Shown here one piece after another: positions 1 to 14,428 of a stretch of DNA of 43,010 nt. Source of the stretch: a virus; the IMG/VR virus record IMGVR_UViG_3300048927_000733, positions 1-43,010 of that record. One strand, given 5' to 3'. Position 1 is the stretch's first letter, and every line of letters starts with the position of its first letter. The notes beneath the pieces were generated by a model. It did no database searches. It worked only from the letters and a program-made list of their open reading frames with translations, and was not told the origin of the DNA. The position numbers and the translations under genes were made by a program.

Positions 1-44
1 TCATAATCCGCGTGTCGGGGGTTCAAGTCCCTCTCCCGCTACCA
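1..44 (+). tRNA. 3' part of tRNA-Met (CAT), prophage attachment core
   Basis: The window opens inside an anticodon loop. Bases 1-6 give the end of a loop with CAT at 2-4, and 7-11 (TCCGC) is the 3' strand of the anticodon stem. A T-stem GGGGG/CCCTC (17-21 with 29-33) encloses the 7-base loop TTCAAGT. The acceptor strand TCCCGCT is 34-40, the discriminator A is 41 and CCA is 42-44. The CAT anticodon could be elongator Met or Ile2; Met is preferred from the general look of the sequence. The 5' half is outside the window. The integrase gene runs antisense through it, so this is the attachment site: either attL, or the attP core if the record is a phage genome. Confidence 0.8.
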
Positions 45-1596
45 CAAGAACAGCCGACAAATCTGCTTGTGTCAGGCTCGACAGGTAGCCCTTGATTTCC
101 AGAACATAGTCCTCACCCGGCTTTCGAGGCTCGACAATTACGCTTGCGATCAGCTGCCGAAAGATCAGCATCGAATCCGCGTCGGGTATTTCTCCGGCTG
201 TTGCGAGGATTTGAGCGAGCTTTTCAATATTGTCTTTGAACCGGCGAACAGCGAGCGGGAAAAACTCAATTACATTAGATGGCTTCTCGGCCTTCGCCAT
301 ATCGGCGGCGAGCTTGTCCCGCGTTGCCCGGAGCCCTGGCAAAATAGCTGCCGCATCATCATCCTCGATGATCCCCTTGGCGACCTTCTCTACAACGCGA
401 GTGATAGCCTGCTTGGCTTCTGCCAGCTGGCGCTCCATGGAAGCCCTGTTGCGCTTCAGGTCCGCATCCACGCGGCGGCTTTCTTCCTCGTATGCATCAA
501 CATAGGCCTTGACCATTTCCGTGTCTGCGAACTGCATTCGAAGCGAGGTAAGAACCTTCTGCTCGATCTTCTCGATGTAGTATCTGGCGGTGTTGTCGCA
601 TGTCCTGGATTCGCGGTGAGTGCTGCACATCACGCGAGGGCCGCTGCGATCAGCGCCGACAACCGACATTCCCCCGCCACATGATCCACAGCGAAGCAAT
701 CCAGACAGGATGCGCCGGTTGCGCACGGCTGGCAGAGAATGTTCTTTCCGGTCTTTCCGCTGTTGTGCCGCCTGAAATAGCTTTTCGTCAACGATGCGAA
801 GGTGAGGGGCTTTCATGGTCTCATGTTCGCTTGGATCGTTCACCCGCGACACCCTACGCCCCGTGCTTGGGTCTTTGACCATGCGAACCCGGTTCCAGAT
901 CATCCGGCCATCGTATACAGGATTGCGCAGGATACCGTTACCCCGCGGGCCATTGCCGTTGATGGTGGATGCGTTCCATTTGTCGCCACGAGGAGGAGCA
1001 ATTCCTTCCTCATTCAGTGCCCCTGCGATCATGCGGGGTGAGACGCCCGAAACAAACTGCTTGAATATGCGGCGGATAATCTGGGCCTCGGCTTCCACGA
1101 TGCGAAGCTCCCCCGGCTTTCCCGGTATCGGCTCATAGCCGTATGCCTTGCCGCCAGCGCTGCGCCCAGAGCGCACGACGCCCACCATTCCCCGCTTGAC
1201 CTTCTTTGCCCCTTCCTCGCGCTGCATCTGGCCGACGACGCCATACATGCCAATTTGCATCGTATCCATGATGCCGCCGTTGACGCAGTTCATCTCGATG
1301 CTTAGGAATTTCAGCGTCTTGTGGATGCTGGCCAGGTCAGCTATGTCACGGGATATGCGATCCGGGGATTCGGAAATGATTATTTCGAATTGGCCCTTAT
1401 CGGCGTCCTGCATGAACGCAGCGAGGCCCGGACGCCCAAACATCGAAGCTCCCGATTTTGCCCTATCGTGATAGACTTTCACGATCTGTGCGCCGATCCG
1501 TTCGGCATGGCTTTCGCAAAGCCTGATTTGATCCTCCACGGACTTATCGTTTTGCAAGTCCGTGGAGTAGCGGGCATATACTGCGGCGCGTTTCAT
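1..1596 (-). CDS. Large serine recombinase (phage integrase)
   Basis: 531-residue large serine recombinase, predicted to integrate and excise the prophage by concerted double-strand breakage through a 5'-phosphoserine link. The resolvase catalytic domain covers about residues 1-150, with nucleophile Ser11 (ARYSTD) and active-site Arg80/Arg83 in SPDRISRD. A recombinase domain follows (about 165-290), then a zinc ribbon with Cys303, Cys306, Cys324 and Cys333, and a coiled coil at about 370-440. It is the last gene of the leftward operon; its ATG overlaps the stop of the preceding 43-residue ORF (ATGA). The last 14 residues (518-531, ending EPPTRGL) are the antisense translation of the tRNA 3' end, and the stop codon lies in the tRNA anticodon loop. 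The C-terminus would therefore differ before and after recombination if crossover occurs in this core. Confidence 0.93.
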   Translation of the reverse strand: MKRAAVYARYSTDLQNDKSVEDQIRLCESHAERIGAQIVKVYHDRAKSGASMFGRPGLAAFMQDADKGQFEIIISESPDRISRDIADLASIHKTLKFLSIEMNCVNGGIMDTMQIGMYGVVGQMQREEGAKKVKRGMVGVVRSGRSAGGKAYGYEPIPGKPGELRIVEAEAQIIRRIFKQFVSGVSPRMIAGALNEEGIAPPRGDKWNASTINGNGPRGNGILRNPVYDGRMIWNRVRMVKDPSTGRRVSRVNDPSEHETMKAPHLRIVDEKLFQAAQQRKDRKEHSLPAVRNRRILSGLLRCGSCGGGMSVVGADRSGPRVMCSTHRESRTCDNTARYYIEKIEQKVLTSLRMQFADTEMVKAYVDAYEEESRRVDADLKRNRASMERQLAEAKQAITRVVEKVAKGIIEDDDAAAILPGLRATRDKLAADMAKAEKPSNVIEFFPLAVRRFKDNIEKLAQILATAGEIPDADSMLIFRQLIASVIVEPRKPGEDYVLEIKGYLSSLTQADLSAVLVVAGEGLEPPTRGL

Positions 1597-4008: not shown

Positions 4009-4821
4009 TCACTGAAACGGGTCGATAATTGGCTTCGTTCTTTCCTGCGCCAATGACCTGTCTCGAACATCTCGAACGGAATACAGCGCGGTGCCTAACA
4101 CCTTGTATGTTCGATGTTTTGGGTCAGTCGTCATTTCAATGGTTTCACCGTAGCGCGGATCGTCACTGTCGAACTGAAAATATGATTTAACGCCTGATCT
4201 GATGATAGCGCGCCTGATTGTTATCTCCATAAGGCCGTTCGTCCACCGCTCGATTGCTACCAGATCCCCGTGCCTAGGCTCATCGTCTTCTCCATACGGT
4301 CGCCTGAAGAGAACGTACTCACCTTTGCGAGCGTAGGGGGTAGCAGAATCGTCAACCATCTCCAAAGCAAACACTTCGGATTCTTTCGCGTCTGGAATAG
4401 CCAGCCACAGCACCTGTACAGAATGACTATTGGTGATTCCGGGATTCCTCCAAACTCCTGCTGCGGCCTCTCCAATGACGTATGTGAGATTTCTCGGCGT
4501 AGGTTCGTCAGACATCGTCACACGGCCGAGCGGACCGCGTGTATACATGTCTTCCCTGTGCATCGGAGAAAGCGCCATCTCGGCATAGTCTTTCGCCTGG
4601 AAGAACGGGGCTGGGCTTATGCCGCTAAATTTGGCGATCTTATTAATTGTTGTCGTAGAGAGATTGAACTGATGAGTTGGGTCGTTCAGCGCTCGTGTGA
4701 GAGTGGTGGACGCCAGCTTTGCTCCCTTAGCCAAAGCGGATGGCGTAAGGTTCATCTCCCTCATCACAAAGGCAGCGTATGCTTTTCCAGCGGAATTTAT
4801 ATCGGTCATAGGATTTTCCAT
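4009..4821 (-). CDS. CI-like repressor (HTH plus S24 domain)
   Basis: 270 residues from ATG 4821. A longer frame to 4845 starts with GTG, and ATG 4809 (MTDINS) has a slightly better GGAAAA site, so the start is uncertain. The N-terminal HTH (about 24-66) reads NLTPSALAKGAKLASTTLTR. The C-terminal LexA-fold domain (about 112-230) has an Ala-Gly pair (121-122) where such repressors are cut and Ser159 in DDSATP at the nucleophile position. The expected catalytic Lys position reads Arg-Arg (203-204). It is expected to bind the TGCATTAATGCA operators on both sides and maintain lysogeny. Lack of the Lys suggests that RecA-stimulated autocleavage may be weak or absent. Confidence 0.88.
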   Translation of the reverse strand: MENPMTDINSAGKAYAAFVMREMNLTPSALAKGAKLASTTLTRALNDPTHQFNLSTTTINKIAKFSGISPAPFFQAKDYAEMALSPMHREDMYTRGPLGRVTMSDEPTPRNLTYVIGEAAAGVWRNPGITNSHSVQVLWLAIPDAKESEVFALEMVDDSATPYARKGEYVLFRRPYGEDDEPRHGDLVAIERWTNGLMEITIRRAIIRSGVKSYFQFDSDDPRYGETIEMTTDPKHRTYKVLGTALYSVRDVRDRSLAQERTKPIIDPFQ

Positions 4822-4847
4822 AGCAAAAGGTGTGCAGAAAAGCACGA

Positions 4848-4859
4848 TGCATTAATGCT
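4848..4859. promoter_or_regulatory. Repressor operator, rightward copy 1 (imperfect)
   Basis: TGCATTAATGCT, 11 of 12 match to the core. It is centred 21 bp (two helical turns) from the perfect copy at 4869, an arrangement that favours cooperative binding on one face of the DNA. Confidence 0.65.
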
Positions 4860-4862
4860 TGA

Positions 4863-4868
4863 AGTATA
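4863..4868 (-). promoter_or_regulatory. Possible -10 of the repressor promoter
   Basis: Leftward TATACT, 5 of 6 to consensus, between the two operator copies. No good -35 is seen at 17 bp, which would fit a repressor-maintenance promoter that needs activation. Confidence 0.35.
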
Positions 4869-4880
4869 TGCATTAATGCA
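4869..4880. promoter_or_regulatory. Repressor operator, rightward copy 2
   Basis: Perfect TGCATTAATGCA placed exactly in the spacer of the rightward early promoter and next to the leftward -10, so one bound dimer could control both directions. Confidence 0.75.
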
Positions 4881-4896
4881 CTATGAATGTCTGGCT

Positions 4897-5109
4897 ATGA
4901 CATTTCACACCGATATCCAAAATATTGAGAGGCGCTTGCGTTCGGCTCGCATTCCCCTCCAGAGACTTTTTCAAGAAGCCGGTATCAATGGGTCTACGTG
5001 GACCCGTTGGCGCGCGCACAAGACCAGCCCTCGTTTAAACACATGGAATGATGTGCAGCGGGCTGCTGAAGATTTGATCCTTCGGAAGGCTGGCGAGGTG
5101 AAATCATGA
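4897..5109 (+). CDS. Cro-like small DNA-binding protein
   Basis: 70 residues, divergent from the CI-like gene and first in the rightward operon, the usual place of cro. It is helical and basic with an HTH-like segment (LQRLFQEAGINGSTWTRWRA, about 21-40). The frame is open further upstream, but ATG 4897 follows the predicted promoter; ATG 4876 inside the operator is the alternative. No Shine-Dalgarno sequence is present, so translation may be leaderless. ATGA overlap with the next gene. Confidence 0.72.
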   Translation: MTFHTDIQNIERRLRSARIPLQRLFQEAGINGSTWTRWRAHKTSPRLNTWNDVQRAAEDLILRKAGEVKS

Positions 5110-5264
5110 TCACTACCGCCGCCATCTGGCTTTCCAATCTCCCCACATGGCCACCGGAACCCGCCCAGGAGTGGGCGACACGGTTTGGCATTTCGCTGTT
5201 CGACGCTGCGCAGGCAGTCGAGGAAGCCCGCAACATGCTGATGCTGCGGAGGGCTTTCGGATGA
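5106..5264 (+). CDS. Small hypothetical early protein (52 aa)
   Basis: Starts MITTAAIWLSNLPTWPPEPA and ends LMLRRAFG. Both junctions are ATGA overlaps (5106-5109 and 5261-5264), which argues strongly that it is translated. It has Trp/Pro-rich first half and a helical second half (ISLFDAAQAVEEARNML), reminiscent of a small HTH-type or protein-protein helix. Family not recognised. Confidence 0.65.
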   Translation: MITTAAIWLSNLPTWPPEPAQEWATRFGISLFDAAQAVEEARNMLMLRRAFG

Positions 5265-6118
5265 AGGCGGCTTACAAGAGAAACCGCGATGGCTCCCAGC
5301 AATTCCTCTTTGGGAAAGTCATTCTCAAAGAGCAGCCGAACCGCAAGCGCGATCCTCGCTTCCAATGGAAGTTCTCGCTCGAAATCATGCGGTTGCGCGA
5401 AATTGAACTGATTATCCGCCATCGCCATGAGCGCGGCATTCCTGACCCTGAAGGCACCGACGACACAGAAAACTGCATGGCTTACATTCAAGCGGTCGCC
5501 AGTACCCCACGTTCGCAGTCGGTCGTTGATTGGTGCAAGACGTGGGCCCCATGGATATCCAACGACGCCCTGCTTGGACTCGTATGGACCCATCGCAGAC
5601 GCAAATACATGCTCGGCGCGGAATCCACTGCAAAGCTGCTCCACGTCACGATGAAAGAGCGAGATGCTCTTGGCCTGAAAACCATTGGCGCCTGCGATGT
5701 GTCGGAGGAAGAGCGAAAGGCGATCAGCAAGAAGCTCAAGCAAGAGCGGGATCGCATCCGGCAACAGGAAAACAGACAGGCAAAAGGCACTGTTCCTCGC
5801 GGTTCCTATGAGGCTGCATCTGCTGAAAGTCTCAAACCTTGGGAAGCCGCTGGGGTGTCTCGCAGGACATGGTATCGCAAGCGTGGCACAGGTCCGTCGC
5901 GAGTAGATATATACAGGAATGGCGACACACCTGTGCCAACGTCTCAAACTCCTCTTTCAAAAGAGAAAAAACCAGCACTCGCAGATATCCCAACCGATAT
6001 GCATCAAGCACGCGCAGCGGGGTTGATGGTGGGTCTGGGGGATCATCCCCCAGCGGGGCTCCAAGGGGCCGCGCCCCATGGGAATGGCGACACTGGCACT
6101 CATGAAAGGGCGGCGTGA
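5261..6118 (+). CDS. Putative DNA-binding early protein, possible replication or regulatory role
   Basis: 285 residues from ATG 5261; a longer frame from 5147 is rejected because 5261 overlaps the previous stop (ATGA). Two HTH-like stretches are visible, at about 118-140 (GAESTAKLLHVTMKERDALG) and 190-208 (LKPWEAAGVSRRTWYRK), separated by a charged helix rich in Arg/Lys/Glu. The C-terminal 70 residues look disordered and are partly encoded by GC-rich palindromes (6035-6077). It is the largest early gene, in the place where many phages keep replication genes, but no polymerase, primase or helicase motif is present. Confidence 0.75.
   Translation: MKAAYKRNRDGSQQFLFGKVILKEQPNRKRDPRFQWKFSLEIMRLREIELIIRHRHERGIPDPEGTDDTENCMAYIQAVASTPRSQSVVDWCKTWAPWISNDALLGLVWTHRRRKYMLGAESTAKLLHVTMKERDALGLKTIGACDVSEEERKAISKKLKQERDRIRQQENRQAKGTVPRGSYEAASAESLKPWEAAGVSRRTWYRKRGTGPSRVDIYRNGDTPVPTSQTPLSKEKKPALADIPTDMHQARAAGLMVGLGDHPPAGLQGAAPHGNGDTGTHERAA
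6035..6077. repeat. GC-rich double palindrome inside an early gene
   Basis: CTGGGGGATCATCCCCCAG (6035-6053) is a perfect palindrome around a central base. It is followed by GGGGC elements (6055-6059 and 6065-6069) that can pair with GCCCC at 6073-6077. It is translated in frame as part of the preceding protein's tail. It may be a REP-like mobile palindrome or an origin-type structure. Confidence 0.6.
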
Positions 6119-6399
6119 TGGATACCAAGCCAACGGCCCAGATCATCCCGTTCCCAGTTGATCAAGAAGTTCTCTTCATCCGCGAAACGGCACGCATCCT
6201 CGCGATCCGCCAAGGCGTAGCAGCAGATCGATTTTGGCAGATGACGTGTCGTCGTCTTTACGCGCGTCTTCAGGTCCAAGGCATGGCGCAGCCCGACATC
6301 GAGCGGGAGGTCAAGAGCTTCGCCGCCGCAGTGTTTGCCCAGATTGACCGCGTGAATGCCCTTCAACACCAGCATCATAATCCCCGAGGTGCAGCATGA
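6118..6399 (+). CDS. Small early protein, DUF6074-like
   Basis: 93 residues from ATG 6118 (TGATG overlap); a GTG at 6115 would give GTGA overlap, but AAAGGG at 6105-6110 is better spaced for the ATG. The N-terminus (AQIIPFPVDQEVLFIRETAR) has the IIPFP...R.TA pattern that I associate with the DUF6074 family of alphaproteobacterial phages and islands; the assignment is from memory. A helical C-terminal half follows. Function unknown. Confidence 0.72.
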   Translation: MDTKPTAQIIPFPVDQEVLFIRETARILAIRQGVAADRFWQMTCRRLYARLQVQGMAQPDIEREVKSFAAAVFAQIDRVNALQHQHHNPRGAA

Positions 6400-6869
6400 C
6401 CGATATTTCAGGACCTCTGTCCAAAGCCGACGCGATGGCTTTTTACGACTTCCTCCATCAGCGGCTTTTTGGTTGGAATATTTCCATATCGTCAAACAAT
6501 CCACGCGGGATGATCGACGGTAGGTGCAAATCTGCCAAGATCGGTGACCGGCTGCTGAAGGATGTATTCCTGAATGGTCCGCACTGGCGGGAATTCGTCG
6601 CATTCGCCATGGATGGCCGAGATCCGATAAGCCTTTGGCCCGAGCAGATGCAAGAGTTCGTGCGCTTCTGCCTTAATCATCGATGCCTAAGAGAGATCAA
6701 CGAACCGCTGTCTGTTGGTGGTCTTGAAAAACGAACGATGTGCCAAGGCATGCCGGCATGGCCTGAATTCCTAAACCGCTACGATAACACCGCCACGCTC
6801 GCAGACATGCCCACACTGCCGCCTGCCTCTGAAATCTATCGGGCGATGGAAGCCAGGAGGCGCGCATGA
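6396..6869 (+). CDS. Hypothetical early protein (157 aa)
   Basis: Unrecognised soluble protein with aromatic-rich segments (FYDFLHQRLFGW; WPEQMQEFVRFCLNHRC). ATGA overlaps at both ends tie it into the early operon. No catalytic motif seen. Confidence 0.75.
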   Translation: MTDISGPLSKADAMAFYDFLHQRLFGWNISISSNNPRGMIDGRCKSAKIGDRLLKDVFLNGPHWREFVAFAMDGRDPISLWPEQMQEFVRFCLNHRCLREINEPLSVGGLEKRTMCQGMPAWPEFLNRYDNTATLADMPTLPPASEIYRAMEARRRA

Positions 6870-7147
6870 TCCTGCTCGACATCATCAAAATCAAGGTCAG
6901 GCTTCTCTTCTCGAAGGTGGGCAGAACCATTATCAGCGAACCGACCTTGCTTGAAGCATGGGTATCCCTTCAATCCCGTGTCTGCACTATCGAGCAAGCA
7001 CTTGTCATCATCGCGCGGGCCAAGCGCGATCACGGCGACAGCGAATCGCTGAACGAAGTCGAGCGGACGCTAGTTGGCATGCTTGGGGATGCTGAAGGTG
7101 GCCGGGACAGCTTTGCTTCCCGGGTCCAAGAGCGGAGGGCCTTGTGA
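6866..7147 (+). CDS. Hypothetical early protein (93 aa)
   Basis: Predicted all-helical; the N-terminal 20 residues (MILLDIIKIKVRLLFSKVG) are hydrophobic/basic and could associate with membrane. Helices follow up to ERTLVGMLGD. ATGA overlap with the gene before. Family not recognised. Confidence 0.7.
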   Translation: MILLDIIKIKVRLLFSKVGRTIISEPTLLEAWVSLQSRVCTIEQALVIIARAKRDHGDSESLNEVERTLVGMLGDAEGGRDSFASRVQERRAL

Positions 7148-7434
7148 TGGCTTTTATAAAAACCCCTTGGGACGATCACTGGATGTATGCCGATTACATC
7201 GGGTTCTTCCATCATGCGCTAGGCGAAAAAGAGCTTCTTGACGAATACCGAAAGGTGAGCGGCAACAGCTGGACACCAGCAGCCACAACCGAAGGCAGGA
7301 TGATTGACAAGGCAACGGGCGCTGATGTGGCCTTCTTGCAAGGGTATTCTGATTGGCTTGTCGCGAATGTGTTTGGCTCCCCGAAGGATGTTTTCGGTGA
7401 GGACGCCACCCAGCACGGGGAGACAGTTCACTGA
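7147..7434 (+). CDS. Hypothetical early protein (95 aa)
   Basis: ATG 7147 (TGATG overlap) is well spaced from GGAGGG at 7134-7139; GTG 7144 is the alternative. It is aromatic-rich at the N-terminus (DDHWMYADYIGFFHHALG) and ends acidic. No family recognised. Its TGA overlaps the CTG of the next gene. Confidence 0.7.
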   Translation: MAFIKTPWDDHWMYADYIGFFHHALGEKELLDEYRKVSGNSWTPAATTEGRMIDKATGADVAFLQGYSDWLVANVFGSPKDVFGEDATQHGETVH

Positions 7435-7877
7435 CGCAGATACTCAACGTCACGCCTGCCGACGATGGCAAATTTCAGATCAGCGACGGAAGCGGCCACC
7501 TGGTCGAAGGCCCATTCGACACCAACGCGCAAGCTTGGGACGCCCTTGACCGACTGAGCAATGACGACGGCAACCGACCAGACAAGCGCCGCAGCAACAA
7601 GAAAGTGCTGTGGGGTAAACCCGACAACAAGCCATGGAAGAAAAGGCGGCGGCAAAAGGAAATGGATCGCATCGCCGCGAAGAAGGAATCGCAAATCAAA
7701 GCGAATGCCGCAAAGGCAACCGGTTGGATCAAGAAGGCAGCGCTGGGCAAGTTCGATCCGAAGGGCGAAAGCGCCTACCGTGATTACAAGCTCGGGACAT
7801 TCGGTGCGGCTTCCGAGGTCAAGCATATCGATCCGGCGCAGTACATGGCTGAAAAAGCCGCGCGAGGTGAGCGTTGA
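7431..7877 (+). CDS. Hypothetical early protein with apparent CTG start
   Basis: 148 residues if translation starts at CTG 7431. The frame is open from 7401 and contains no ATG, GTG or TTG before GTG 7605. The CTG has GGGGAG at 7417-7422 (8-base spacing) and forms a CTGA overlap with the previous stop, just like the other junctions of this operon. The first 58 residues look like real protein (FQISDGSGHLVEGPFDTNAQ). The rest is very basic (KPWKKRRRQKEMDRIAAKKE) and may bind nucleic acid. The conservative annotation would be 7605-7877 from GTG (90 residues). Confidence 0.7.
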   Translation: MTQILNVTPADDGKFQISDGSGHLVEGPFDTNAQAWDALDRLSNDDGNRPDKRRSNKKVLWGKPDNKPWKKRRRQKEMDRIAAKKESQIKANAAKATGWIKKAALGKFDPKGESAYRDYKLGTFGAASEVKHIDPAQYMAEKAARGER

Positions 7878-8299
7878 ACCGATCACCCAACGGCATCAAC
7901 GTGCATCGCTTCCTTGAAGGCTACGGCGTCAAGGTGCTGCCGTATCATCTGAAGCGCGACCCTCGTCCAGCCAACGTGGTTTATGGCGGCCGAGAGGTTG
8001 CGCGCCTGATGCGCCGGGACATCGATCGCACCGGCCTAGTGGTCCGCTGCATCCAGGCAAGCAATCCCGTTTGCTTCGAAGACATCTATCTGTGGTCAGT
8101 CTTCCGTTTTCTGGCCATCCATTTCCCCCACAGCCCCGCAAGGGACGTGGTTGCCGGATTTTCCGGCATCGACATAGCCAAGATCAGACAAACCGCTCAG
8201 CGCCTTTCTGTTGGCGAGGGTGGCGCGCTCACAAAATCAGCAGTGGTAATCAGCATCGAGTTGGCACGGGCCATCATTCTAAAGGACAAAGCGGCATGA
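7874..8299 (+). CDS. Hypothetical early protein (141 aa, TTG start)
   Basis: Starts at TTG 7874 (TTGA overlap) behind GAGGTGA. It is mixed helix/strand with a conserved-looking core (VARLMRRDIDRTGLVVRCIQ). No family recognised. The C-terminal helix ends IILKDKAA, with an ATGA overlap into the next gene. Confidence 0.72.
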   Translation: MNRSPNGINVHRFLEGYGVKVLPYHLKRDPRPANVVYGGREVARLMRRDIDRTGLVVRCIQASNPVCFEDIYLWSVFRFLAIHFPHSPARDVVAGFSGIDIAKIRQTAQRLSVGEGGALTKSAVVISIELARAIILKDKAA

Positions 8300-8922
8300 C
8301 CAGATCAACGGCAATGACAGTTGAGCAAGAAACCATTCTCGAGCGTTTAATTGAAGCGTTCGAAACAGACATCGCGCTGCCGGTGCGCGTCGGCCCGCAA
8401 TCCTTCGGGAGCTCGATGCCGGATTATATCCACACGCCAGCTGAGAACTTCGCCCGCGAGCGTGAAGACATTGCCGAGGGTCGCCGCTGGAAAAAGGACA
8501 TGGAGGCCGAGGAGCGCCGCCGCACTATGCGCCGTGCCAAGTGTTCACGGGAACGCATCAGTCGCATGGAAGAGGCTTTCGACTGGATCCGGAAATACAT
8601 CTGGGACGAGGAAGCCCGACAGGTGCTGCTTGCATATGCCGAGGTAAAGGCCCGCGGATGGGAGTGGGGGCGATACATCAACTCCCGGAATCGCAAGAAC
8701 CCGAAAAAAACAGCATGGGTTAAACGAACCGTCCAGCGATGGATTGTTCGGTCTTTGCAAATAATTGAGAGGAATGTTCGCCAGACGGGAACAGTCTGGT
8801 CTGTTGAGGGAGGTTTACAGGTGTCCCACGAAGCGGCAAAACACGAGTGCAAATCAGTAAGTTCGGGTTTGCGTTCGTGGATAGCACCTGATGGAAATCC
8901 CTCCCTTGGGAGGAAGGCTTAG
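8296..8922 (+). CDS. Putative DNA-binding protein, last gene of early operon (DUF6362-like?)
   Basis: 208 residues from ATG 8296 (ATGA overlap); a longer frame from 8071 is rejected. After an acidic helical N-terminus comes a basic coiled segment (WKKDMEAEERRRTMRRAKCS). A helical domain at about 95-165 follows (RISRMEEAFDWIRKYIWDEE, then TAWVKRTVQRWIVRSLQII) that resembles HTH domains of the DUF6362 type found in phage genomes; this match is from memory. Last gene before the convergent XRE regulator. Confidence 0.68.
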   Translation: MTRSTAMTVEQETILERLIEAFETDIALPVRVGPQSFGSSMPDYIHTPAENFAREREDIAEGRRWKKDMEAEERRRTMRRAKCSRERISRMEEAFDWIRKYIWDEEARQVLLAYAEVKARGWEWGRYINSRNRKNPKKTAWVKRTVQRWIVRSLQIIERNVRQTGTVWSVEGGLQVSHEAAKHECKSVSSGLRSWIAPDGNPSLGRKA

Positions 8923-8949: not shown

Positions 8950-8979
8950 AGCCCGCTGCACCAACCAGAACAGCGGGCT
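8950..8979 (-). terminator. Intrinsic terminator of the XRE gene
   Basis: Perfect 9-bp stem AGCCCGCTG/CAGCGGGCT with a 12-base loop, followed leftward by TTTGTTTC. It lies between the convergent early operon and XRE gene and may act in both directions. Confidence 0.8.
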
Positions 8980-8985
8980 CAAATA

Positions 8986-9381
8986 TTATCCACGGACAAA
9001 CATATGCCTAAGGAGAGCTTCAACACCAGCCGCGTTTGGGTGATGAGCTTCCTTTTGGGTTTCGATAACGTCAATAATCATGTCCGCAACGTCGGTTTTA
9101 TCAAGAACATTCAGAGCGACGAGCTTGTTAATGAGTGCCTGCGTTAGGATAAGGTTAGCGTCAATCACGACGCCGGCGTCAACGGAGGATGAAGTGGTAG
9201 TGGTCATGCCAATTTCCTTGTGGAAGATCGCTTCTAGAGCGGTTTGATGGTGAGGTTTGAGCGGGCTGGCACCGCTTTCGAGCTTTTGATAACCACGCAG
9301 CGTGAAGCCAAGTGCTTCGGCAGTCTGTGCTTGGGTAAGTTTCGCGGCGCGGCGTAGTCTGATGAGCTCTGCAGGTTCCAT
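8986..9381 (-). CDS. XRE-family transcriptional regulator
   Basis: 131 residues from ATG 9381, preceded by AAGGGG; the frame reaches 9426 but without a good ribosome binding site. The N-terminal HTH_XRE domain (about 1-55) reads LIRLRRAAKLTQAQTAEALG then FTLRGYQKLESGASPL. A helical C-terminal region (70-131) probably dimerises. It has its own promoter and palindromes (9557-9607) unlike those of the CI-like repressor, so it is a second regulatory circuit. What it controls other than itself, perhaps the tRNA-like gene or late genes, is not visible. Confidence 0.85.
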   Translation of the reverse strand: MEPAELIRLRRAAKLTQAQTAEALGFTLRGYQKLESGASPLKPHHQTALEAIFHKEIGMTTTTSSSVDAGVVIDANLILTQALINKLVALNVLDKTDVADMIIDVIETQKEAHHPNAAGVEALLRHMFVRG

Positions 9382-9556
9382 TTTCAACCCCTTGAGTGTG
9401 GTGATTTTGGGCAACTTAGGGTTCATTAAGACCCCGGCGTGCCCAAAGTTTTCGCAAAATAATGATCGTCACTCACAGTTTCACGAACCGGAGCTTGCAC
9501 CAAATCATGCCTCTGAACGCACATTCTTCCAGACGCAAGATTACTTCGGCGATTGC

Positions 9557-9766: not shown

Positions 9767-9838
9767 GCGGGCTTCTTCGAGGCGAGGCAACAGCCTTCCA
9801 AGCTGCCAAGGTGGGTTCGACTCCCACAGTCCGCTCCA
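9767..9838 (+). tRNA. tRNA-Gly(TCC)-like gene with degenerate D arm
   Basis: 72 bases fold as a tRNA. Acceptor GCGGGCT (9767-9773) pairs with AGTCCGC (9828-9834) with one G-T pair. The anticodon loop CTTCCAA (9795-9801) has anticodon TCC on a 4-bp stem plus one mismatch. T-stem GTGGG/CCCAC encloses TTCGACT, and the end is discriminator T plus encoded CCA (9836-9838). The D arm is abnormal: CTTCG/CGAGG with a 3-base loop. It may be a functional phage tRNA, a decaying one, or a mimic. A strong terminator follows directly. Confidence 0.6.
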
Positions 9839-12500: not shown

Positions 12501-12941
12501 ATGTCACGAAAGAGCGCATATCAGCCTGAGTACGCTGAGCAGGCCGAAAAGCTGTGCGAGCAAGGCCTGACGGATAAGCAGCTTGCGGAATTCTTCGGGG
12601 TTACTGACCGCACCATCTCAAGATGGAAGCTCGAATACCCGGAATTCTGTCAGTCCCTAAAGGCAGGCAAGGAAATATCCGATGAAGCCGTAGTGCGCAG
12701 CCTATTCCAGAGGGCAATCGGTTACTCGCACCCGGACGTCGATATCAAGGTAATTGATGGGCAGGTAGTGAAGACCGAAGTCACCAAGCACTATCCGCCG
12801 GACACGACCGCCGCCATCTTCTGGCTGAAGAACCGCAAGCCGAAGGACTGGCGCGACAAGCAGGAAGTCGAGCTCAACGTGAATGGCTCGCTCGCTGAAC
12901 GTCTCAACCGCGCCAAGGCAAGGAAGCCAGCACAAAAATGA
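12501..12941 (+). CDS. terS: Terminase small subunit
   Basis: 146 residues. N-terminal HTH (about 12-45: AEKLCEQGLTDKQLAEFFGV, then TDRTISRWK) recognises the packaging site. The central region has the phage terminase small subunit pattern (SLFQRAIGYSHPDVDIKVID ... HYPPDTTAAIFWLKNRKPKD). ATGA overlap with the large subunit. Forms the packaging motor with it. Confidence 0.93.
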   Translation: MSRKSAYQPEYAEQAEKLCEQGLTDKQLAEFFGVTDRTISRWKLEYPEFCQSLKAGKEISDEAVVRSLFQRAIGYSHPDVDIKVIDGQVVKTEVTKHYPPDTTAAIFWLKNRKPKDWRDKQEVELNVNGSLAERLNRAKARKPAQK

Positions 12942-14428
12942 TGACGGCAGAGAAGCGCGACCCAGATGAAGAAATTCTGGATGCCGCAGCTGAATGTCAG
13001 TTTGACCCGCAAGGATGGGCGTTGTTCGCATGGGATTGGGGCAAAGGCGATCTTAAGGACATAGAAGGCCCGCGTGAATGGCAGGCCGATATCAACGAAG
13101 AGATCCGGCAGCACCTTAACAGCGAGAACCGGTACCAGCCTTTACAAATCGCGGTGGCAAGCGGTCACGGTATCGGCAAGTCTGCTGAGATGGGCATGCT
13201 CTCCAATTGGGCTATGTCCTGCTTTGTCGATTGCAAGATTGTTGCCACGGCCAACACTGAAAGCCAGCTGCGCACAAAGACGTCGCCCGAGATTGGCAAG
13301 TGGTTCCGCTCGTCGATTACGTCACACTGGTTCGATGTGCAGGCCATGTCGGTCAAAGCCCGTGATGCCGAACACGCTGACCTGTGGAGGCAGGACTTCG
13401 TTGCATGGTCGGCCCACAACACGGAAGCCTTCGCCGGACTGCATAACAAGGACAAGATCATCCTTCTGTTGTTCGACGAGGCTTCGAAGATTGCCGATAG
13501 CGTCTGGGAAGTGGCCGAAGGTGCGCTGACTGACGAAAACACGATCATCATTTGGATTGTGTTCGGCAACCCTACGCAGAACACCGGACGATTCCGCGAG
13601 TGTTTCCGCCGCCACCGTCGGCGCTGGATCAGAAGGCAGATCGACAGCCGGACAGTGCCAGGCACCAACAAGAAGAAGCTTGACCAGTGGGTTGAGGACT
13701 ATGGCGAAGACCATGATTTCGTAAAGGTGCGAGTGCGCGGCATGTTTCCATCAGCATCGGCAAAGCAGTTCATATCGGTTGACGATGTTGATGCTGCGCA
13801 GAAGGTCCACCTTCGTCCAGAACAGTACGATTTTGCGCCGAAGATCATCGGTGTCGATCCAGCTTGGACGGGTGACGACGAACTGGTCATATATTTCCGG
13901 CAAGGGCTTTATTCCAAGCTCCTGATGGTCATGCCGAAGAATGACAACGACATCCTCGTAGCCAACCATGTAGCTAGGTTTGAGGACGAGTTGCAGGCTG
14001 ACGCCGTGTTCATCGACCTCGGCCACGGTACCGGCATTTACTCCGCTGGCATCACGCTCGGCCGCACTTGGCAGCTTGTCAGCTTCGCAGAAAAGAGCGT
14101 TGACCGTGGCTGCCTGAACAAGCGTGCTGAGATGTGGAAGGGCATACGTGACTGGCTCAAGCAGGGCGGCGCGATCGATCCAAAGGATGACGTGCTTTAC
14201 CAAGACCTGATCGGCCCAGAGCTTGTTGCCCGCACGGATGGCAAGCTGCAACTTGAAAGCAAGGAAGACATGAAGATCCGTGGCCTTCCATCTCCAAACC
14301 GAGCTGACGCTCTCGGCCTAACCTTTGCCCGCCCTGTGGTGGCAAAGGAGCGTGAAGACGAACGATACAATCACAGTCGAGACACCAGCTATAGCGGTTC
14401 AAACGACGACTACAATCCTTACGCATAA
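12938..14428 (+). CDS. terL: Terminase large subunit
   Basis: 496 residues. The ATPase domain has Walker A GHGIGKS at 76-82 and Walker B ILLLFDE at 175-181. The RNase H-like nuclease domain has candidate metal-binding acidic residues Asp307 (GVDPAW), Asp360 (FIDLGHG) and Asp457 (RADALG). It cuts and translocates DNA into the prohead. The length is usual for the family and no frame damage is seen. Confidence 0.95.
   Translation: MMTAEKRDPDEEILDAAAECQFDPQGWALFAWDWGKGDLKDIEGPREWQADINEEIRQHLNSENRYQPLQIAVASGHGIGKSAEMGMLSNWAMSCFVDCKIVATANTESQLRTKTSPEIGKWFRSSITSHWFDVQAMSVKARDAEHADLWRQDFVAWSAHNTEAFAGLHNKDKIILLLFDEASKIADSVWEVAEGALTDENTIIIWIVFGNPTQNTGRFRECFRRHRRRWIRRQIDSRTVPGTNKKKLDQWVEDYGEDHDFVKVRVRGMFPSASAKQFISVDDVDAAQKVHLRPEQYDFAPKIIGVDPAWTGDDELVIYFRQGLYSKLLMVMPKNDNDILVANHVARFEDELQADAVFIDLGHGTGIYSAGITLGRTWQLVSFAEKSVDRGCLNKRAEMWKGIRDWLKQGGAIDPKDDVLYQDLIGPELVARTDGKLQLESKEDMKIRGLPSPNRADALGLTFARPVVAKEREDERYNHSRDTSYSGSNDDYNPYA

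Follow-up and report, generated by a model that had tools for sequence, protein, structure and literature searches.

Architecture of the early operon

The window analysed here, which is the whole 43,010-nucleotide (nt) stretch of IMG/VR virus record IMGVR_UViG_3300048927_000733, carries on its plus strand, between positions 4897 and 8922, a run of ten open frames (genes A to J; Table 1) that overlap at nine of nine junctions, as read from the window sequence and its list of open reading frames (ORFs). Stop and start codons are fused in 4-nt overlaps of the form NTGA, namely ATGA at positions 5106, 5261, 6396, 6866 and 8296, CTGA at 7431 and TTGA at 7874, and, on the best reading, in 1-nt TGATG overlaps at 6116-6120 and 7145-7149. 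A preliminary description of this DNA had reported stop-start overlaps at nine consecutive junctions, and all of its coordinates were verified in the window; the stop-to-start spacing at all nine also lies within the range of about -8 to +6 nt used to recognise coupled operons. The joint best explanation of the observations below, and a fairly probable one, is that these genes constitute a re-initiating chain in which each gene would provide the initiation site of the next, and in which, as comparison of relatives shows, genes have been exchanged at NTGA.

Table 1. Features of the early operon, its surroundings and the microgene loci in relatives
Feature	Position	Strand	Description	Basis
Gene A	4897..5109	+	70 residues; first gene, Cro position, without Shine-Dalgarno sequence (SD)	ORF
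Gene B	5106..5264	+	52 residues; ATGA junction; SD GGAGG for gene C in tail	
Gene C	5261..6118	+	285 residues; no assigned function	ORF and relatives
Gene D	6118..6399	+	93 residues; DUF6074; ATG 6118; TGATG junction	
Gene E	6396..6869	+	157 residues	ORF and relatives
Gene F	6866..7147	+	93 residues; microgene-like first 30 nt	
Gene G	7147..7434	+	95 residues; TGATG junction; SD GGAGGG	ORF
Gene H	7431..7877	+	148 residues; CTG start	Alignment to relatives from residue 1
Gene I	7874..8299	+	141 residues; TTG start	ORF and relatives
Gene J	8296..8922	+	208 residues; phrog_6836, distant DUF6362; closes the chain	
Repressor gene	4009..4845	-	HTH_26 (1.3e-5) and Peptidase_S24 (3.6e-5), both above cut-off; divergent from operon	Pfam
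Two identical 12-base-pair (bp) sites	4847..4879		ATGCATTAATGC, palindromic core GCATTAATGC, 21 bp apart	Repeat search
Putative operon promoter	4859..4887	+	TTGAAG-17-TATGAA; 8/12 consensus; ends 9 nt before ATG 4897	By eye
Inverted repeat	8950..8979		AGCCCGCTG/CAGCGGGCT; between J and the convergent gene; absent from terminator-scan hits	Read in sequence
Convergent helix-turn-helix gene	8986-9426		Downstream of J	Domain search
Large terminase	12938-14428		54-55% identity to epsilon15 and phiV10 over 95-98%	tblastn
Microgene loci	L002:5478-5546, L014:5838-5906, L015:5419-5487, L005:5478-5546, L018:6056-6124			
Microgene loci, continued	L017:6056-6124, L021:5612-5680, L038:5446-5514, L029:5505-5567, L035	L035: -		

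Relatives and selection on the genes

Relatives, cited by L numbers where one must be told from another, were viral contigs obtained from protein searches with genes I and J at the same operon position, with two more added by a search with the microgene described below. Homologs of B, C, D, E, H, I and J are present among them in varying combinations, with protein identities of 76-82% for B in many relatives, 77-79% for C in L002 and L018 and 51% in L015, 47% for E in L014 and 36% in L013, and 64-67% for the conserved gene H, whose synonymous sites are saturated. Pairwise codon comparison with a relative gave ratios of nonsynonymous to synonymous substitution (dN/dS) of 0.05-0.28 for B, C, D, E, I and J (individually 0.28 for B, 0.19 for C, 0.24 for E and 0.15 for I), so these six are, judged by the constraint on their codons, real genes, and the same is concluded from its alignments for H. 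The product of D matches Pfam DUF6074 (2e-19), and J belongs to phrog_6836 in 15 of 15 members.

In the viral-contig searches and comparison no relatives were found for genes A and G, nor for F beyond its first approximately 17 codons; searches of the same contigs with E, F, G and H as queries returned no relatives, those of E and H being found later beside I and J. Searches run without a positive control, and therefore uninformative, found no relatives of gene I in sets of 397 and 385 species genomes and no microgene in the 397. The predicted structure of the gene I protein, a good model with a predicted local distance difference test score (pLDDT) of 86, had no match in the PDB. A 74-nt unannotated stretch of Mesorhizobium phage Cp1R7A-A1, an unrelated large phage, is 90% identical to the start of gene C (L031:3001-3074); this DNA match was dismissed as evidence on the operon, as the region sits between transfer RNA (tRNA) genes.

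Conservation of the overlap geometry

Across the early junctions of the window and 16 relatives, spacings of -4 or -1 occur at 141 of 153 (92%; 126 at -4, 15 at -1 and 12 others), and overlaps of any other length at only two. Past gene J on the same stretches the figure is 10 of 29 (Fisher p 5e-11 against the early junctions), and among late-region neighbours in the window it is 3 of 19 (Fisher p 3e-5 against the chain). For most groups of prokaryotes, the published share of codirectional pairs with an overlap of any length averages about 15% (PMC6728339); the overlaps of the chain exceed chance. The geometry is retained in the 16 relatives across unrelated gene contents: L012 has it at all eight of its junctions although its early genes are mostly unrelated, and the chains include a DnaB helicase gene (L012:3353-4816) and an RNase HI gene (L021:5677-6582). 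The gene finder used for the early junctions scored codon usage, SD, start codon and homology, with no bonus for overlap; it does reward SDs, so the early junction count is not free of assumptions, and the A|B junction of the window was entered into the 153-junction set by hand. Late-region distances in the window come from another gene finder, which had late genes as its training set, overlooked most of the early ones and was used for that region only.

Shine-Dalgarno sequences in the tails of upstream genes

Each of the nine downstream starts in the window has an anti-SD match within the final coding stretch of the gene before it, and seven of these matches are among the strongest 4.4% of operon positions, while gene A has none (anti-SD energy +0.4, 88th percentile). 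With the relatives included, an SD of -4.4 kcal/mol or stronger is present at 93.6% of 140 junctions, at a median duplex energy of -7.65 kcal/mol. At spacings of 5 or 8 nt the upstream frame reads the SD as NGG AGG, and arginine accounts for 16.8% of the last six residues of the early proteins against 8.4% of the protein body; the arginine-rich C-terminal tails of unrelated early proteins (LRRAFG, EARRRA, ERRAL, KWRAAR) are therefore attributed to the in-frame reading of the next gene's SD.

Exchange of genes at the overlaps

The 132 NTGA junctions comprise 81 families of tails (upstream ends) and 77 families of heads (downstream starts) in 96 distinct combinations, and half of the recurrent ends (10 of 20 tails, 10 of 20 heads) are joined to at least two partners. 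Among 42 swapped junction types, 27 in which one head has different tails and 15 in which one tail has different heads, the fitted breakpoint falls on NTGA or within a few bases of it in most, as it does in the average identity profile. Positions 2-4 of NTGA are identical by construction; the end of homology at NTGA is not. Selection for those recombinants that retain both reading frames and the SD is a simpler reading than a site-directed process, the same picture being expected from both. Since the SD is part of the upstream gene, as is the first base of NTGA, each gene supplies its successor's initiation site, and with swaps located at NTGA itself the SD moves with the upstream gene.

A mobile microgene

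Ten relatives carry a microgene of 20-22 codons, in its commonest form MILLEIIKIKLQLVARKWRAAR, with the SD AAATGGAGGG in its tail and ATGA at both ends in most copies. It has been exchanged as a 65-bp block, and among the copies its upstream neighbour is one of six genes and its downstream neighbour one of two. The L029 copy (MILLDLIKLKCRLWWRRVTL) is divergent, with many base changes and the peptide pattern retained, so it is apparently the peptide rather than the DNA that is conserved. Gene F of the window opens with the first ten codons of the microgene (28 of 30 nt; MILLDIIKIK against MILLEIIKIK) and runs on to 93 residues. A net charge of +5 and a hydrophobic moment of up to 0.45 suggest that the peptide may form an amphipathic helix.

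Short leader ORFs that carry the next gene's SD and end in a stop-start overlap are used in synthetic bicistronic designs, and the microgene, by its tail, start and stop, resembles a natural version of such a leader, with the differences that it is natural, is located in an operon and has a peptide product that is probably under selection. That likeness, together with the overlaps at both ends, the strong tail SD and the exchange as a block, is what might be expected of a pure coupling spacer without a role for its protein. Retention of the peptide pattern in the divergent copy and of the N-terminus in the longer gene F makes this rather doubtful, and the 22-residue phage peptide is probably conserved, amphipathic and under selection.

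Start codons

The preliminary description had listed CTG and TTG among the starts and GTG as possible at two junctions. The first two stand, for H and I respectively, and these are the only genes that appear to need a non-ATG start. GTG 6115 was ruled out as the start of gene D, because relatives have CTG or TTG at that codon, whereas ATG 6118 does not vary; by analogy with D, gene G would start at ATG 7147, leaving no need for GTG 7144.

Gene H starts with ATG in most relatives, with GTG in L028 and L029 and with CTG in the window only, and its homology to relatives begins at residue 1. CTG was thus ruled out as a conserved start of H; lying at a recombination joint, CTG 7431 is better read as a scar than as a tuned start. 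It is conceivable, if rather unlikely, that H of the window has lost its start and that translation from ATG 7662 yields just the C-terminal 71 residues; this ATG is preceded by AAAAGGA and is selected by a simple gene finder. In figures that PMC11497404 cites, initiation at CUG is 0.86% of that at AUG, as against 58.4% for GUG and 29.8% for UUG. Against such a loss, the N-terminal half of H is conserved from residue 1 and free of stops, the SD and the -4 overlap have been retained, and re-initiation may tolerate CUG at this gene.

Gene I starts with TTG in 11 loci, with GTG in at least five and with ATG in L012 alone, where the N-terminus is different, whereas ATG begins 114 of the 123 other overlapping genes. 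The upstream gene ends on the N of NTGA, and I begins with T when H lies upstream and with G when the RNase H gene does. Between L006 and L002 the I protein is nearly identical and both upstream genes and start codons differ; in L035 and L038 the RNase H tail with GTG precedes a gene unrelated to I. Start identity therefore travels with the upstream tail, and as one part of the joint explanation favoured here it is probably for the most part a by-product of tail-head joining.

The proposal in the preliminary description that start-codon identity tunes the level of each protein is mostly unsupported, given that J, B and D keep ATG in relatives wherever the start is readable and that the CTG of H is unconserved. 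It could be confined to gene I, where the non-ATG start is conserved and where ATG would mostly be synonymous in the last codon of the upstream gene, but it is confounded there by that same codon. Selection on start codons to set protein ratios, clearest at gene I, is accordingly regarded as improbable: the start base follows the upstream gene, including ahead of the unrelated L035 and L038 gene, and only about four independent joints bear on it, from which there may be a preference against ATG.

Operon boundaries and surroundings

The two ATGCATTAATGC sites between the repressor gene and gene A are probable repressor operators, lying inside the putative promoter. Promoter and terminator scans of the window gave no excess over shuffled sequence, and this promoter was not picked up. 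In L014, L029 and L035 a TTG-type hexamer, a 17-nt spacer and an AT-rich -10 element stand 8-9 nt before the ATG, with better hexamers than in the window (TTGACA-17-GATAAT in L035), and in L015, L038 and L028 an SD is present ahead of the first gene. It is a reasonable inference from these distances that the messenger RNA of the first gene is leaderless, or nearly so, in several of these phages, gene A of the window included. The inverted repeat beyond J is a probable end of the operon.

Gene J is the last of the chain in the relatives examined, ahead of the late genes, and by this position it is a possible Q-like late activator. Its top PDB fold match is 6jnx, a Q-engaged complex, and is weak (E 2.7, probability 0.28, model pLDDT 68.5); PF06530 had no match at J in the window, and a viral fold search with J gave no named match.

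By the identity of its large terminase the window is assigned to an epsilon15-like temperate phage, and its host is probably related to rhizobia, since gene I has matches on Rhizobium and Sinorhizobium plasmids. At window positions 1-1596, on the minus strand, lies what by eye is a serine-recombinase-like integrase gene, where epsilon15 is annotated with a lambda-type integrase, which suggests that the lysogeny module may have been swapped. Positions 9767-9835 give an Rfam tRNA match of 32.6 bits that was not called by ARAGORN and is perhaps a tRNA remnant or an attachment-site relic.

Comparison with known systems

The ninR region of lambda, for which PMC8022706 cites the phrase 'chain of interlinked genes' from Kroger and Hobom (1982), is also a stretch of small ATGA-chained genes of variable content in a rightward early operon, with a late activator at its end (Q in lambda, J by position here), and the nin genes of every lambdoid phage are described as typically having many ATGA overlaps (PMC8022706). 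From lambda O to Q, -4 spacing is found at 7 of 11 junctions, against overlap at nine of nine in the window and 92% at -4 or -1 with its relatives. No homology of the chain genes to nin genes was found, none of the ten proteins having a nin-family (ninB-ninI) match in Pfam or PHROGs. The operon therefore looks like a non-homologous relative of the lambda nin chain rather than a new mechanism. To our knowledge lambda has nothing that corresponds to the TTG, GTG and CTG starts or to the movable microgene. No statement that joints lie on ATGA in nin regions was found in the literature searched, and the joint-on-NTGA pattern and the microgene are the more novel features of the operon. In epsilon15 and phiV10 (Uetakevirus-type phages of Salmonella and E. 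coli) the likeness lies in the large terminase, while the early genes of epsilon15 are unlike by annotation and unchained. The termination-reinitiation pairs of bacteria and archaea have the same -4/-1 geometry with the SD in the upstream gene; those systems are gene pairs (PMC6728339, PMC10666635), whereas in the window all ten genes of an operon are linked by this geometry, which also marks recombination joints.

Probable re-initiation along the chain and its significance

The operon may be transcribed as one polycistronic early unit, from the repressor-controlled promoter before A to the inverted repeat after J. The final codons of each gene contain an SD, and its stop is joined as NTGA or TGATG to the start that follows, such that a ribosome finishing one gene would sit on the next start and re-initiate with the help of that SD. 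Genes exchanged singly at NTGA, an exchange seen by comparison, would then be replaced without loss of expression. Termination-reinitiation has been demonstrated for the same overlap geometry in E. coli and Haloferax gene pairs (PMC6728339, PMC10666635); of five E. coli pairs, loss of the SD eliminated reinitiation in one and reduced it by 60-90% in three (PMC6728339), and a spacing of 38 nt lowered it by 80-100% (PMC10666635). By analogy, termination-reinitiation coupling is likely in the operon of the window.

Several points weigh against this account. With its own SD at each junction, independent de novo initiation at the overlaps could occur, and the two modes are inseparable by sequence; the promoter is weak by consensus; the relatives share ancestry and are not mutually independent; their gene calls were made automatically and include errors, such as a fusion in L017 and an undetected J in L021; and genes A, F and G are without relatives over their full length, their support consisting of open frame, SD and architecture. 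The preliminary view that ribosomes re-initiate along the whole transcript is accordingly upheld in part, geometry and SDs being consistent with it while de novo initiation is also supportable at every junction.

It is unlikely that the overlaps reflect only genome compaction combined with independent SD-driven initiation and no re-initiation. Every junction has an SD adequate for de novo initiation, and a -4 spacing, being easily evolved, is more frequent across prokaryotes than any other (PMC12548453). Compaction alone, however, would be expected to produce mixed overlap lengths, as occur after the operon (-20, -8, -7, +2 and others), whereas the early region is nearly pure -4/-1 across unrelated genes in phages that leave gaps elsewhere, and the early genes of epsilon15 are not chained in this manner (3 of 10).

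Overlaps of the ATGA type are usually explained by compaction or by the coupling of partner proteins. Here they persist while the partners change, and the mosaic joints fall on the overlaps. A tentative extension of the re-initiating chain, possible rather than probable, is that the NTGA overlap serves as the exchange unit of a plug-in system of early genes, in which any cassette, including a 22-codon microprotein gene that also acts as a translational coupler, would be expressed immediately wherever it is inserted; the overlaps would then be kept, beyond any coupling of protein levels, because gain or loss of a gene is neutral for the rest of the operon. The approximately 130 natural aligned junctions constitute a resource on the part of overlaps in gene exchange, on start codon and SD in re-initiation, and on the role of the 22-residue peptide.

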